Positions 8,648-12,284 of a DNA stretch of 34,134 nt are shown here, one piece after another (the first letter of the stretch is position 1; each line of letters begins with the position of its first letter). The DNA comes from an uncultured Clostridia bacterium. Its GTDB lineage: Bacteria > Bacillota > Clostridia > Oscillospirales > Oscillospiraceae. The translations under genes and the position numbers were made by a program. Location of the stretch: assembly GCA_947165595.1 (NCBI GenBank), contig CAMVAV010000019.1, positions 1-34,134 on the forward strand, read 5' to 3'. Below the pieces are notes generated by a model, which saw only the letters and a list, made by a program, of their open reading frames with translations, was not told where the DNA came from and made no database searches.

Positions 8648-9394
8648 ATGAAACGCAAATTATCCAGCGGAATCCTGGCATTCATTCTCATCTTTACCAT
8701 GACCGTTCCGACTTTTGCCGCAAATTGCCGGACGCCGTCCCTCCGGAACGAGGCGCTGTGGCAGCTGCTGACCCGATCGGGCTGCTGCGGCGGACAGCAG
8801 ACGGGGAACGAGCTCAACTCGTTTTTGCGCATATGGCTCGCACAGCAGCTCGTCTCGGGCGATGAGCCTGCGCAGAAGGAGCAGGACGAGGCAGCGAAGC
8901 CTCCGCAGCCGGAGACCGCGCCCGACGCGCCGTCGTCAGACAGCGAAATGCCGCCTGAACCGGAACACCCTCAAGACTCAGCCGGAGCCGGCGACGGGGA
9001 AGCACAGCAGGAAAGTCCAACGCGAGCCTATGAGCACGAGGTGGTTCGGCTGGTCAATCTTGAGCGTGAAAAGGCAGGCCTCGCCGCGCTGCGGGAGGAC
9101 GCCGCGCTGTCCGACGTCGCGCGGGCAAAGTCACAGGACATGCATGATCTCGGCTATTTCGACCACAACAGTCCTACTTACGGCACGCCGTTTCAAATGA
9201 TGCGCTCCTTCGGCGTAAGCTATCGCACAGCGGGAGAAAACATTGCCATGGGCTATCGCACGCCCGCGGCGGTCGTGGACGCCTGGATGGCGTCGCCGGG
9301 ACATCGCGCAAACATTTTGAACGCGTCCTATACGATCATCGGCGTCGGTTATGTAGCGGACGGCCATTACTGGACACAGCACTTCATCGGTTGA
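8648..9394 (+). CDS. secreted CAP/SCP-domain protein (YkwD type)
   Basis: The 248-residue product starts with a clear Sec signal peptide (MKRKLSSGILAFILIF, then a TFAA cleavage region). A Pro/Glu/Ala-rich linker (about 80-125) connects to a C-terminal CAP domain (about 128-248). CAP hallmarks are visible: the first conserved His and acidic residue in MHDLGYFDHNSPTYG, GENIAMG, the second His in SPGHRANILN, and the closing YWTQHFIG. CAP proteins of this type in spore formers are exported and some are spore-associated; their enzymatic activity is not settled. Four cysteines sit just after the signal peptide (NC, SGCCGG). ATG 8648 is chosen over an upstream in-frame ATG because of GGGAGG 7 nt before it and the signal peptide. 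It is monocistronic. Confidence 0.9.
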   Translation: MKRKLSSGILAFILIFTMTVPTFAANCRTPSLRNEALWQLLTRSGCCGGQQTGNELNSFLRIWLAQQLVSGDEPAQKEQDEAAKPPQPETAPDAPSSDSEMPPEPEHPQDSAGAGDGEAQQESPTRAYEHEVVRLVNLEREKAGLAALREDAALSDVARAKSQDMHDLGYFDHNSPTYGTPFQMMRSFGVSYRTAGENIAMGYRTPAAVVDAWMASPGHRANILNASYTIIGVGYVADGHYWTQHFIG

Positions 9395-9541
9395 CGCAGC
9401 GAGCGAAAAAAGCAAAATTGATCGCACAAGTCCGCGCGAAACGGTTCGCGACGATTCTTCAAATGAAAGCAGGCGAAGAATTCATCAAACCCTTTCGCGC
9501 GGGCGTTTCCAAGCAGAGAAGTACAAAACATCAAAACACAT

Positions 9542-9554
9542 AATTGAACAAAAT
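9542..9554 (+). repeat. 13-bp direct repeat, left copy
   Basis: AATTGAACAAAAT is repeated exactly at 12279-12291, and its inner 12-mer ATTGAACAAAAT also at 11181-11192 and 11655-11666. The outer pair brackets the recombinase island. It could be an attachment-site core or a protein-binding site. Confidence 0.6.
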
Positions 9555-9571
9555 GTATGAAAGTTTTGTTC
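9546..9571. repeat. inverted repeat GAACAAAA-N10-TTTTGTTC
   Basis: The 8-bp arms are perfect (9546-9553 and 9564-9571). With one mismatch they extend to 12 bp, and the element is followed by a T-rich tract. It may be a weak AT-rich terminator of the CAP gene or a dimeric binding site related to the other ATTGAACAAAAT copies. Confidence 0.5.
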
Positions 9572-9612
9572 GATTTTTTGTGGGAAACAAACATATACAG
9601 GGATTCGGGTAT

Positions 9613-9645
9613 AACCCGCGGTAACAGATGTTGCCGCGGGTTTTT
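9613..9645 (+). terminator. intrinsic terminator downstream of the CAP-domain gene
   Basis: AACCCGCGG (9613-9621) pairs with CCGCGGGTT (9634-9642) and is followed by TTTTT. It is a strong candidate for the end of the CAP-domain transcript. Confidence 0.8.
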
Positions 9646-9733
9646 CATTATTTCTTGCCCGTAACCCTGTCTTAGACGGTCGCCATACCGTTTGAGAAAT
9701 ATAAAACTCTACATGAAAGAGAGGAAAAGGAAA

Positions 9734-9973
9734 ATGAAGATCAAGGTTTATGGCAAGGTGCATCGTGAGGGCACGAACAAGAAGACAGGGAAGCCGTACG
9801 ACTTCAACCAAATTCACTATCTCGGCAAGGCTCCGGACGTTGAGGGGCAGACGGCGGAAACGCTCTTCCTCGACCCGCGCGACTTCCCGCTTGACAAGAT
9901 CAACGTCGGGCAGGAGTACAACGTCGAATTCAACCAGCGCGGCTTCGTGGTTGGGTTCGAGCCGTTGAAGTGA
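9734..9973 (+). CDS. small ssDNA-binding-like protein of phage/mobile-element type
   Basis: The 79-residue product starts MKIKVYGKVHREGTNKKTGK and is beta-rich, with alternating basic and aromatic residues and ends YNVEFNQRGFVVGFEP. The size, the short strands and the late KVGQEYNV-like turn resemble the tiny OB-fold ssDNA-binding proteins of filamentous phages and related integrative elements of Firmicutes. This is recognition by look, not a proven assignment. ATG 9734 is preceded by GAGGAAAAGG. Its stop is overlapped by a GTG of the next frame, suggesting a two-gene unit. It stands alone: no replication initiator or Zot-like ATPase is next to it, so any parent element must be decayed or rearranged. 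Confidence 0.55.
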   Translation: MKIKVYGKVHREGTNKKTGKPYDFNQIHYLGKAPDVEGQTAETLFLDPRDFPLDKINVGQEYNVEFNQRGFVVGFEPLK

Positions 9974-9981
9974 GGCGCGGC

Positions 9982-10344
9982 ATGAGCGGCAAGGAAAAGG
10001 AAGTCACAATCCGATTCCGCGAGAAGGACGCTTTCCAGCACTATTTCGACCTGATTACTTCCGCAAAGGAGGGCATGACGCTCGAAGAAGAAGAAGAAGA
10101 AGAAGAAACGATAATCAAGGGAGCTTTGAGCGAGGCAATCAAAAACGAATACATTTCTGCTCAATCCTTTTCTTGCGGAAATCCGGCTGAGCTGACGGGA
10201 GCGGGAATACGGGCGCAAACAAGATTCTCAAGCGAATGGAATCCTTGCCAACGCGCGCTTGACACATACAGTTTTTCAAACATGGTTGACAAAGCCTCGT
10301 GGTATGGTGTACTATATGGGCGGGCGGTGAATCCGCCCATATAG
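9982..10344 (+). CDS. uncharacterised acidic-repeat protein, 3' part doubtful
   Basis: The frame gives 120 residues. The first half (MSGKEKEVTIRFREKD..., to about residue 60) looks coding: charged, helical, with a run of eight glutamates encoded by a GAAGAA microsatellite. The second half overlaps a promoter-like TTGACA/TACTAT pair and a 12-bp hairpin (10312-10344), so the true end may lie earlier or a frameshift may have joined two parts. Another frame encodes a plausible short end (10191-10259, ending with TGA). A GTG at 9970 overlapping the previous stop is an alternative start; GAGG before 9982 supports the ATG. No family is recognised. Confidence 0.4.
   Translation: MSGKEKEVTIRFREKDAFQHYFDLITSAKEGMTLEEEEEEEETIIKGALSEAIKNEYISAQSFSCGNPAELTGAGIRAQTRFSSEWNPCQRALDTYSFSNMVDKASWYGVLYGRAVNPPI
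10286..10315 (+). promoter_or_regulatory. promoter reading against the 40-codon peptide gene
   Basis: TTGACA (10286-10291), an 18-nt spacer and TACTAT (10310-10315) would start a plus-strand RNA near 10322. That RNA crosses the whole minus-strand peptide gene before a hairpin with a T-run at 10593-10614. Confidence 0.6.
10312..10344. repeat. 12-bp perfect inverted repeat at the 3' end of the peptide gene
   Basis: CTATATGGGCGG (10312-10323) and CCGCCCATATAG (10333-10344) flank a 9-nt loop. On the minus strand it lies 14 nt after the peptide stop and would fold at the 3' end of its mRNA. There is no U-tract, so it may be a stability element rather than a terminator. Confidence 0.7.
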
Positions 10345-10357
10345 CACAGGGTTTTGC

Positions 10358-10480
10358 TCACAGGCTCTTGTCTATCAGCAAGAGTATGAGCCCAACGATG
10401 AAGTCAACAAGAGCGGTAATGATGATGGGGCGAACATCAAGAGCATTCCGCTTTGTTGGCTTCTTCTTTCTCCGCTTCAC
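10358..10480 (-). CDS. 40-residue cationic membrane peptide, candidate type I toxin
   Basis: A GTG start at 10480 lies 5-6 nt after GGGGGAG. The peptide has a strongly basic head (residues 1-11: six Lys, three Arg), a linker (NALDVRP) and one hydrophobic helix (about 19-36, with LVDFIVGLILLLI), ending DKSL. Length, charge pattern and single helix are those of small membrane-acting toxins of type I toxin-antitoxin loci and holin-like peptides. The leader contains a very GC-rich hairpin (10512-10537) that could occlude translation, and an opposing promoter would make a full-length antisense RNA. An in-frame ATG 18 nt upstream lies before the ribosome binding site and is less likely. A toxic role is inferred. 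Confidence 0.55.
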   Translation of the reverse strand: MKRRKKKPTKRNALDVRPIIITALVDFIVGLILLLIDKSL

Positions 10481-10566
10481 CGAAACTCCCCCTTTCATCC
10501 AAAATTGGAGAGCGCGCGCGACGCTCGCGGCGCGCGTGTGTCTTTACAGCCTTATGGACGAAATTG

Positions 10567-10638
10567 TTTGTCAAGGGGACCGTGGAATAAATACCAGTGC
10601 TCACACTGGTTTTTATGCCGCGAAAGCCCCTTGACAAA
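10567..10638. promoter_or_regulatory. divergent promoters built on a 12-bp inverted repeat
   Basis: TTTGTCAAGGGG (10567-10578) and CCCCTTGACAAA (10627-10638) are perfect reverse complements, each containing a consensus -35 TTGACA that points outward. Leftward it would drive the 40-residue peptide; rightward it has TGCTAC at 17 nt. The -10 boxes are weak, most of all on the left. A terminator hairpin (10593-10614) sits between them. Confidence 0.5.
10593..10614 (+). terminator. short intrinsic terminator
   Basis: ACCAGTG (10593-10599) and CACTGGT (10604-10610) enclose CTCA and are followed by a T-run. It would end plus-strand transcription from 10322 just before the rightward promoter. Confidence 0.6.
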
Positions 10639-11181
10639 TAAATTTCATGTCCATGCTACACTACATTATTCTCCCGTCCCGCCGAAGCGAAAACCGACAA
10701 GCGCGGTATGGTGGAAGGGTAGTGGCGATCTCGTTTGCGGTTTGGCTCACGACCGAGACAGCAGAAAGCAGAAAGCAGTTGACAGCACTTTCATTGTTTG
10801 ACGTCTCACGGAAGTCAAATAATATCGCGCAAGCGATTGTGCCGGGAATAAGCACTTGTTTAATCGTTCTGCTGGCTCGGGCGTGCGACGCAAGACCTTG
10901 GCTTGCGTCGATCACAAAAAAAATAAAGCCCTTGGCATAATCCAAAAGCTTATTTCAATACATTGCGAAAGCAATATTGCTTTACATCATGTTCAACAAA
11001 TTCAAAAAAAACTCTTGACAAATATATGAACAATCCGCTAACGTAACAGACAAGCAAAGAGCATTTCTGGTGGTTTGATAGGTTCAAGTGGCGCGGAAAA
11101 CTGCTAACAAAACTGTTATTTTGTTCTTCGCACATCTGCAATAGGCGAGGGCTTGCCCTCGCAATAAAAAAAGATATGCGA

Positions 11182-11210
11182 TTGAACAAAATAAAAACTT
11201 TGTTTAAAAT
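11182..11210 (+). promoter_or_regulatory. recombinase promoter overlapping an ATTGAACAAAAT copy
   Basis: TTGAAC (11182-11187), a 17-nt spacer and TAAAAT (11205-11210) form a good promoter 64 nt before the recombinase start. The -35 box is part of the repeated 12-mer (11181-11192), so a protein binding the repeat would control this promoter. Confidence 0.6.
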
Positions 11211-11273
11211 AGGGGATTGATTTTTTGAGGAATCCGCGGTACGATAATAATACACTGAATTGGAGTGGTTGCC

Positions 11274-12284
11274 ATGCTTGACTATCGTACCGAAGCGCCT
11301 GCGGTCCTGCGGGACTTTCTTTCGTATCACGAGACCATTAAAGCACACTCACAGCGCACGGTCGACGAATACTTTCTTGATCTGCGAAATTTTTTTCGCT
11401 ATCTGAAGATGACGCGCGATCCAGCGCTCAAAAACTGTGAGCTGCATGAGATCGACATTATGGACGTCGATGTGGATTTTGTGCGCACCGTAACGCTGAC
11501 GGAGATTTATGGCTATATGACCTATCTCAGCCGCGACCGTATCCGGCATCAGAACAGCGACAAATCGGACTATGGCCTGAATGCGGCGTCACGCGCACGC
11601 AAGATCGCCACGATCCGCTCCTTTTACAATTATCTGACGAACAAGGCGCACCTGATTGAACAAAATCCTGTGAAGGATATGGATTCGCCAAAGCTGATGA
11701 AATCGCTGCCGAAATATTTGACACTGGATGAGAGCGTGCAGCTTCTGGATTCGGTCGACGGCAAGAACCGCGAGCGCGATTACGCCATACTGACGCTTTT
11801 TCTGAACTGCGGACTGCGTATCTCGGAGCTGTGCGGACTCAATCTCAACGACATCCAGGGCGAGGCGCTGCGCGTGCTCGGCAAAGGCAATAAGGTCCGC
11901 ATCGTCTATCTGAACGAAGCGTGCCTCAGCGCGCTGAACGACTGGCTTGCGGTGCGCCGTCCGATCACGGGGCGCGATCAGAACGCTCTGTTTTTATCGT
12001 CGCGCAACGAGCGGATCAGCAAATCGAACGTTCACGCGCTGGTCAAAAAGCACATATCCGCCGCCGGGCTCGATGCGACGCAGTATTCCTCGCACAAGCT
12101 GCGCCACACGGCGGCGACGCTGATGCTGCAAAACGGCGTCGACGTGCGCGCCGTGCAGGAGGTTTTGGGTCACGAGCACCTCAACACGACGGAAATCTAC
12201 ACCCATGTTGACAACGAGATGCTCCGAACCGCAGCAAAGGCGAATCCCCTCTCGAAGATCAAAACGCCGGAAAAGAAAAATTGA
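11274..12284 (+). CDS. tyrosine recombinase (XerC/XerD-like)
   Basis: The 336-residue product has the two usual parts: an N-terminal helical DNA-binding (SAM-like) domain (about 8-125) and a catalytic domain. The catalytic residues are visible: Arg in GLRISELCGL, Lys in LGKGNKVRIVYL, His-x-x-Arg in HKLRHTAATLM, His in GHEHLNTT and the nucleophile Tyr in EIYTHV. It is longer than classical XerC/D (about 300) because of an inserted charged segment near residues 70-100. ATG 11274 is used, with GGAG about 8 nt upstream; a GTG at 11265 is part of that site. It may be a chromosomal Xer-type enzyme or the integrase of the 9.5-12.3 kb island. The 12-mer ATTGAACAAAAT lies in its promoter, inside its coding region and just after its stop. 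Confidence 0.9.
   Translation: MLDYRTEAPAVLRDFLSYHETIKAHSQRTVDEYFLDLRNFFRYLKMTRDPALKNCELHEIDIMDVDVDFVRTVTLTEIYGYMTYLSRDRIRHQNSDKSDYGLNAASRARKIATIRSFYNYLTNKAHLIEQNPVKDMDSPKLMKSLPKYLTLDESVQLLDSVDGKNRERDYAILTLFLNCGLRISELCGLNLNDIQGEALRVLGKGNKVRIVYLNEACLSALNDWLAVRRPITGRDQNALFLSSRNERISKSNVHALVKKHISAAGLDATQYSSHKLRHTAATLMLQNGVDVRAVQEVLGHEHLNTTEIYTHVDNEMLRTAAKANPLSKIKTPEKKN

Follow-up and report, generated by a model that had tools for sequence, protein, structure and literature searches.

A putative type I toxin-antitoxin-like module of Clostridia prophages and its apparently decayed copy in an inovirus-like remnant

Analysis was carried out on a 34,134-nt stretch of DNA from an uncultured Clostridia bacterium (contig CAMVAV010000019.1, hereafter the window), in which a small minus-strand ORF faces a promoter on the plus strand. 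The question raised by this locus is whether the ORF encodes the membrane toxin of a type I toxin-antitoxin (TA) system with a full-length antisense RNA, as an initial annotation made from the letters had proposed. Comparison with relatives suggests that the encoded peptide, termed peptide A, is probably the toxin of a prophage type I TA-like module, and that the window holds a decayed copy of it in an inovirus-like remnant.

The locus and its genomic setting

The main elements described by the initial annotation were recovered in the window: the 40-codon minus-strand ORF with its GTG start and GGGGGAG Shine-Dalgarno (SD) sequence, the plus-strand promoter just past its stop, and the strong GC hairpin of the leader (Table 1). 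The basic head and single hydrophobic helix it had described agreed with a lysine/arginine-rich head and a best 19-residue Kyte-Doolittle mean of 2.78. An in-frame ATG six codons upstream of the GTG was also open. Points missing from that annotation were the lack of a good toxin promoter, a second peptide (peptide B), the palindrome at 10312-10344, and the placement of the terminator hairpin inside another element.

Taken alone, the promoter and terminator features of the window are weak: positions 9000-12000 contained 8 promoter-like sites (expectation 2.8 ± 1.7) and 10 terminator-like sites (expectation 4.4 ± 2.2). Both predicted RNAs folded far better than shuffled sequences (z -5.05 for the antisense RNA and -5.20 for the other). 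Since the peptide, the antisense promoter and the 5' hairpin are conserved in relatives, the window features are lifted above chance.

Table 1. Features of the window, and the palindrome arrays of related phage loci
Feature	Position	Strand	Remarks
Possible dif-like site, left end of remnant	9543..9572	plus	By eye; longer spacing than right site; 94% over 32 nt to L037
RstB-like (inovirus) protein	9734..9973	plus	phrog_929 E 1.7e-8; Pfam CTX_RstB 0.0079, below cut-off
Peptide B start remnant (MFEKL)	10269..10283	minus	Truncated after about five codons
Antisense promoter	10286..10315	plus	TTGACA-18-TACTAT (or 16-TGTACT); 10/12 match
Palindrome	10312..10344	plus	Predicted 5' hairpin of antisense RNA and 3' hairpin of A mRNA; overlaps antisense -10
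Predicted antisense RNA, ~290 nt	10322..10614	plus	Inferred from promoter and hairpin; spans all of A and its leader
Peptide A ORF	10358..10480	minus	40 codons; GTG at 10480, stop 10358-10360; basic head, one hydrophobic helix with D26, V29, G30
SD of peptide A, GGGGGAG	10486..10492	minus	GGGGG block common to L011 and L012
GC-rich leader hairpin	~10513..10541	minus	Within ~38-nt insert between A promoter and SD; without counterpart in L011 and L012
Degenerate promoter of A	10543..10574	minus	TTGACA 10574-10569; best downstream match TGTAAA 10548-10543, 20-nt spacing; without palindrome
Conserved structured element, ~75 nt	10564..10640		Core CCGTGGAATAA-N-TTATGCCGCGAAAG at 10580-10626; inner hairpin 10593-10610 and T-run
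dif-like site beside Xer gene	11181..11208	plus	By pattern; poorer site at 11106-11128, 3 mismatches
XerC-like tyrosine recombinase	11265..12284	plus	In 16/18 genus genomes at E<=1e-80
Three-site palindrome arrays	L028 7232-7316; L011 1392-1476; L012 2924-3012		Sequence recurs in A promoter of same phage

Homologs of the RstB-like protein occurred in 5 of the 18 genomes of the genus, its own included, one of them at only E 0.003; on the contig of one homolog (G154:C37) the further ORFs resembled inovirus Rep, coat and Zot by eye. The dif pattern gave three matches against 0.01 expected, two of them at 11181-11208, and the left dif-like site had no match to it. With a similar pattern, 11 of the 14 loci examined in relatives had a dif-like site ahead of the Xer gene, and the right site together with the XerC-like gene looks like a linked Xer/dif module. 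The segment 9543-11208 as a whole looks like an Xer/dif-integrated inovirus-type remnant, of uncertain left end, that acquired the peptide module.

The peptide A family and its neighbouring genes

Members of the family occur in Clostridia, on viral contigs and in prophages; about 20 distinct loci were recognised by peptide profile and architecture. The genome of the window contained one convincing copy; a second match (E 0.79) falls in a 281-codon frame. A single-sequence search of 400 genomes of the family Oscillospiraceae matched 8 at E<=0.1, four of which look real (the window, G253 at 69%, G269 at 54% and G313 at 34%), the other four lying in long or unrelated frames. The alignment search matched 9 of 400 genomes in the family (five of them apparently real, counting the truncated L023), 5 of 394 in the order and 7 of 391 in the class, the window included each time. 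Twelve viral-contig loci matched as well, and the peptide was also present in contigs of an uncultured Firmicutes MAG, Anaeromassilibacillus senegalensis mt9 and Oscillospiraceae bacterium CE91-St43 (L004/L061), whose module is intact. Peptide A is thus sparse per genome. Matches in G042, G110 and G170 were discarded for frame length, those in G232, G074, G380 and G287 for weak score and frame length, and that in G083 on viewing its sequence. Ten phage-like neighbour proteins picked by hand at eight loci all matched phage endolysin, holin, terminase, portal or head families; the surroundings of L005 resemble host chromosome by eye.

Twenty-one distinct loci were kept for counting. Left out were L003 and L022 (nearly the same as L011), L013 and L065 (both matching L060), L017 (identical to L010 at this place), L063 (identical to L062) and L061 (from the genome of L004), and also L016, whose contig ends inside A, and L023, whose A is truncated. 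The pairs L010/L059, L014/L015 and L069/L070 are close, so the independent events are fewer than 21.

In a 13-row alignment, peptide A was 36-44 aa long with a lysine-rich head, and K5, D26, V29 and G30 were invariant. Fourteen pairs over 30 codons, which overlap and include broken copies, were compared: 11 gave dN/dS ratios of 0.06-0.34, the value for the window with L011 being 0.34, and the remaining three were not computable (two with saturated dS, one with zero dS and one replacement). These codon comparisons indicate that the frame is under purifying selection. Conservation of the frame in relatives, the check that the initial annotation had suggested, was borne out, and peptide A has the character of a small hydrophobic peptide gene conserved as coding, as looked for in type I TA systems.

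The 46-aa form of the window's peptide gave no Pfam or NCBIfam match at E<=1. Across 13 members, Pfam gave only TraD at 0.082 (one member), NCBIfam gave three weak unrelated matches (best 0.022), and the PHROGs matches were unconvincing (one member to phrog_37457, of unknown function, at E 0.001; two to phrog_15129, best 0.017). No profile match linked peptide A to the known type I toxin families in Pfam or NCBIfam. With family members as tblastn queries, no match was found in phages (three queries) or plasmids (one query), and positions 10240-10700 had no match in plasmids. Rfam produced no hits at gathering over the window, and a miRNA model on 10200-10760 in an Rfam search at E<=1 was rejected as far under its cut-off. 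Among the papers listed, none dealt with this family by title or abstract start, and for type I TA in Oscillospiraceae the literature concerned riboswitches by title. Peptides so tiny and so often unannotated make type I systems difficult to detect; if the present reading is true, it adds a toxin family that the searches made here did not reveal.

Peptide B, a second tiny membrane peptide of about 29-38 aa with one helix and a basic tail, starts about 68-86 nt past the stop of A in 19 of the 21 loci. It is missing in L071 and in the window, where it is cut after MFEKL. A 62-75 aa protein often follows B. Among nine of these third genes tested, six had a helix-turn-helix (HTH) domain above the Pfam cut-off (HTH_3-type in L004, L066, L069 and L074; HTH_17 in L005 and L010), L062 had only a sub-threshold NikA-like match, and L012 and L073 had no Pfam match. 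A ribbon-helix-helix identity for the L073 protein was unsupported by Pfam. The third gene was assigned by resemblance in L059, L014, L015 and L070, and none was recognised by eye in L011.

Opposing promoters, proposed mechanism and known systems

The antisense promoter was sought within 110 nt past the stop of A, on the opposite strand, with TTGACA/TATAAT and a small preference for 17-nt spacing. A promoter of at least 10/12 was found just past the stop in 18 of the 21 distinct loci, the window included, and of at least 9/12 in 20; the weakest were L005 (8/12), L015 (9/12) and L074 (9/12). In 300 dinucleotide shuffles, the number of loci with at least 10/12 averaged 0.32 and never exceeded 2. 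Among 414 other ORF ends in the same loci (mechanical, uncurated ORFs of at least 60 aa), 12 reached at least 10/12 and 56 at least 9. An earlier scan over 130 nt gave at least 10/12 in 13 of 15 loci; its best promoter lay elsewhere in L012, L060 and L005, which the 110-nt scan put at the common place. Predicted antisense starts lie 22-44 nt past the stop of A, and a hairpin of varying sequence was predicted there in all 21 loci, with z <= -2 in 12; in the other 9 its fold did not outperform shuffled sequences (z > -2).

The opposite-strand promoter might instead serve a divergent gene further on, its overlap with A being incidental, and an antisense-strand ORF (at least 50 codons with an SD-like motif, selected mechanically) does lie within 900 nt past the start of A in 13 of the 21 loci. 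No such ORF passed the filter in L001, L010, L011, L012, L060, L062, L071 and L073, however, and the position of the promoter is fixed to the stop of A and not to a gene. Intrinsic terminators 73-144 nt beyond the start of A, predicted in only 5 of 16 loci (window included), would moreover end the RNA early in L001, L004, L018, L060 and L067. A divergent gene is considered a very improbable explanation.

On the sense strand, 13 of the 15 loci examined have a promoter of A that scores 9-12/12 and has a 17-nt spacer; the window and L067 are the exceptions. The spacer often contained a palindrome, locus-specific in sequence, and only 6 of the 15 surpassed shuffled sequences (p<=0.05); further palindromes were visible in L069, L070, L072, L073 and L074. 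In the phages of L011, L012 and L003 (that of G253), the palindrome recurred between early-gene-like ORFs as a three-site intergenic array, one copy being exact and two carrying 2 mismatches. At 1-1.5 kb from the array, L011 and L012 have an XRE-type gene (HTH_3 in L011); because another ORF separates the two, the array is termed a putative immunity region. Outside this group no second palindrome copy was found in the 7.7-58.5 kb searched, and the proposal that the A palindrome is always a phage immunity operator was rejected, as second copies occurred only in the L011/L012/L003 group. The third-gene protein may bind the A palindrome, and its lack in L011 and L012 would fit control by a phage repressor.

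Peptide A is broken at four of the loci: the start region is gone in L060 and L071, L067 lacks the start codon and the promoter of A, and in L005 the frame is lost near the start. Intact copies occur in other loci. The antisense promoter still scored at least 10/12 in L060, L067 and L071, and only 8/12 in L005. In L023, where A is truncated, an antisense promoter was visible by eye but uncounted. A broken A with a kept antisense promoter is as expected if A is the harmful part, since a harmful peptide would tend to be lost preferentially, but the numbers are small. The pattern bears on another reading, in which A and B are non-toxic phage membrane proteins for superinfection exclusion or lysis timing, with the antisense RNA regulating timing instead of acting as an antitoxin. 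The modules examined lie near lysis or packaging genes, the palindrome is common to the immunity-like array in the L011/L012/L003 phage group, and 19 of the 21 loci have retained the two peptides side by side, all of which would suit such a role. It is nevertheless judged rather unlikely, given the surviving antisense promoters over broken A in L060, L067 and L071 and the toxicity on overproduction reported for antisense-controlled single-helix peptides of this size. Conservation of the peptide, the antisense promoter in 18 of 21 loci and peptide B in 19 of 21 indicate that the family is probably a type I TA-like module. Against this count the predicted antisense terminators in only 5 of 16 loci, the palindromes and 5' hairpins that do not surpass shuffles, the weaker antisense promoters of L005, L015 and L074, the antisense-strand ORFs that the promoter might serve in 13 of 21 loci, and the poor toxin promoter of the window copy. 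The module type proposed by the initial annotation, supported by selection and promoter position, remains the best reading of the family, and the window copy itself seems decayed.

Homology of the window to L011 and L012 extends from the antisense promoter to the SD. Upstream of A, these relatives have TTGACT/A-17-TATAAT with a palindrome, whereas in the window the sequence is TTGACA-20-TGTAAA, with an addition of about 38 nt that forms the GC hairpin. By its sequence the window copy looks damaged, with B truncated and the A promoter degenerate; the A frame, SD and antisense promoter remain intact. Together with the insert, these lesions leave it evenly balanced whether the copy is silent. An unexpressed fossil of a prophage module within the inovirus remnant, which is compatible with the best explanation of the family, is accordingly given the same weight as an expressed copy: beside the lesions there is one convincing copy in the genome, and against them stand the intact features and the dN/dS of 0.34 with L011, although that value reflects mostly older history.

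In the proposed mechanism, A would be transcribed in intact relatives from its consensus-like promoter, which a repressor could cover through the palindrome between -35 and -10. The second promoter would fire in the opposite direction and give an antisense RNA that begins with a hairpin and spans all of A. This RNA would pair with the A mRNA, probably loop to loop at the shared hairpin, leading to block or destruction of the RNase III type. Peptide B, whose start coincides with the antisense -35, would follow A on the same strand. On loss of the repressor or the RNA, through prophage induction or loss of the element, A would be made and the membrane damaged. In the window, the A frame and antisense promoter would remain of this scheme, with B and the A promoter gone.

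More tentatively, the family may represent a Clostridia phage module with three layers of control, namely an exchangeable operator, the antisense RNA and peptide B. Its own small, swapped-in regulator (XRE, HTH_17, perhaps ribbon-helix-helix) or the phage immunity repressor would act on it, coupling a type I toxin to the lysis-lysogeny switch, and it could move to inovirus-type elements. If the TA-like reading of the family is right, one group links a toxin promoter to an apparent prophage repressor operator, and the role of prophage type I toxins during induction becomes directly testable.

The initial annotation had matched the locus to txpA/ratA and bsrG/SR4, which combine a prophage membrane toxin with an antisense RNA, as predicted here; in txpA/RatA the antisense RNA acts at the 3' end. 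As A has no profile match to known type I toxins, these systems stand as analogues only, and yonT/SR6/yoyJ is closer in layout. In that locus of Bacillus subtilis phage SPbeta, two small toxic peptides are described with a sigma-A antisense promoter at their junction, and SR6 RNA, which overlaps the yonT 3' end and the yoyJ 5' end, acts against the mRNA of the first peptide (PMC5848175). The present family resembles it in its prophage two-peptide layout, in an antisense promoter placed where the two small membrane-peptide genes join (B occurs in 19 of the 21 loci and is truncated in the window; 18 loci have the promoter), and in damage to the second gene in relatives. It differs in that the predicted RNA would start between the genes and span all of A; YonT has 58 aa. 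Of the systems compared, yonT/SR6/yoyJ has the nearest layout, a likeness of arrangement.

The nearest precedent for a role appears to be hokW-sokW of Sakai prophage Sp5 in phage release. The toxin of this type I TA is reported to appear on prophage induction and to raise phage release; on induction hokW mRNA did not rise and sokW RNA fell (PMC8621323). Its antisense RNA is complementary to the 5' UTR, unlike that predicted here, and an operator at the toxin promoter is unmentioned in the passages on it. Prophage type I TAs of C. difficile (e.g. CD0956.2-RCd10) share the Clostridia prophage setting, the small membrane peptides (34-53 aa toxins) and, as predicted here, convergent antisense RNAs (PMC6563280). 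The toxins described there have an N-terminal helix and a lysine-rich C-terminal tail; A has the reverse order, and B the same order.

The conserved structured element at 10564-10640

The terminator proposed by the initial annotation was located as the hairpin at 10593-10610 followed by TTTTT, but this hairpin is the tip of an independently conserved element. That the hairpin at 10593-10614 is just an antisense terminator is therefore weakened, although it could still terminate. No Rfam match was obtained for the element, and none of the papers listed for four core strings dealt with such an element by title.

The core was present in seven IMG/VR contigs, with Zot above the Pfam cut-off in L095 and Rep_1 below it in L094; the other core-bearing contigs were inovirus-like or not by eye. 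The element also occurred in the Microviridae genome MG945503 (92.6% over 68 nt, one core base differing) and in the unannotated phage clone MT839862 with a tyrosine-recombinase gene. In the class, 6 of 331 genomes contained the core, the window's own included, and the L104 copy lies beside a Zot match above cut-off. Genome G879 held ten copies with common flanks; the three examined each follow a 453-codon ORF with only HTH in Pfam and transposase-like by eye. The neighbour of the L103 element has an rve integrase core. A reversed control pattern of the core had no match among the matches listed.

Across 15 element sequences, changes on both sides that preserve pairing were seen at 13 of 23 predicted pairs, of which 12 belong to the outer stem, and the inner core was invariant, an invariance partly built in because most copies were found by exact core matches. 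As a guess, the element may be a complementary-strand start, an ssDNA-replicon structure or a recombination structure. The G253 ORF starting MATKNNIRSIRFSDE had no Pfam match. More copies of the element were seen in the window's own genome (C57:11480-11516), in G253:C89 and in G154:C1, those of G253 and G154 just upstream of an ORF with this start.
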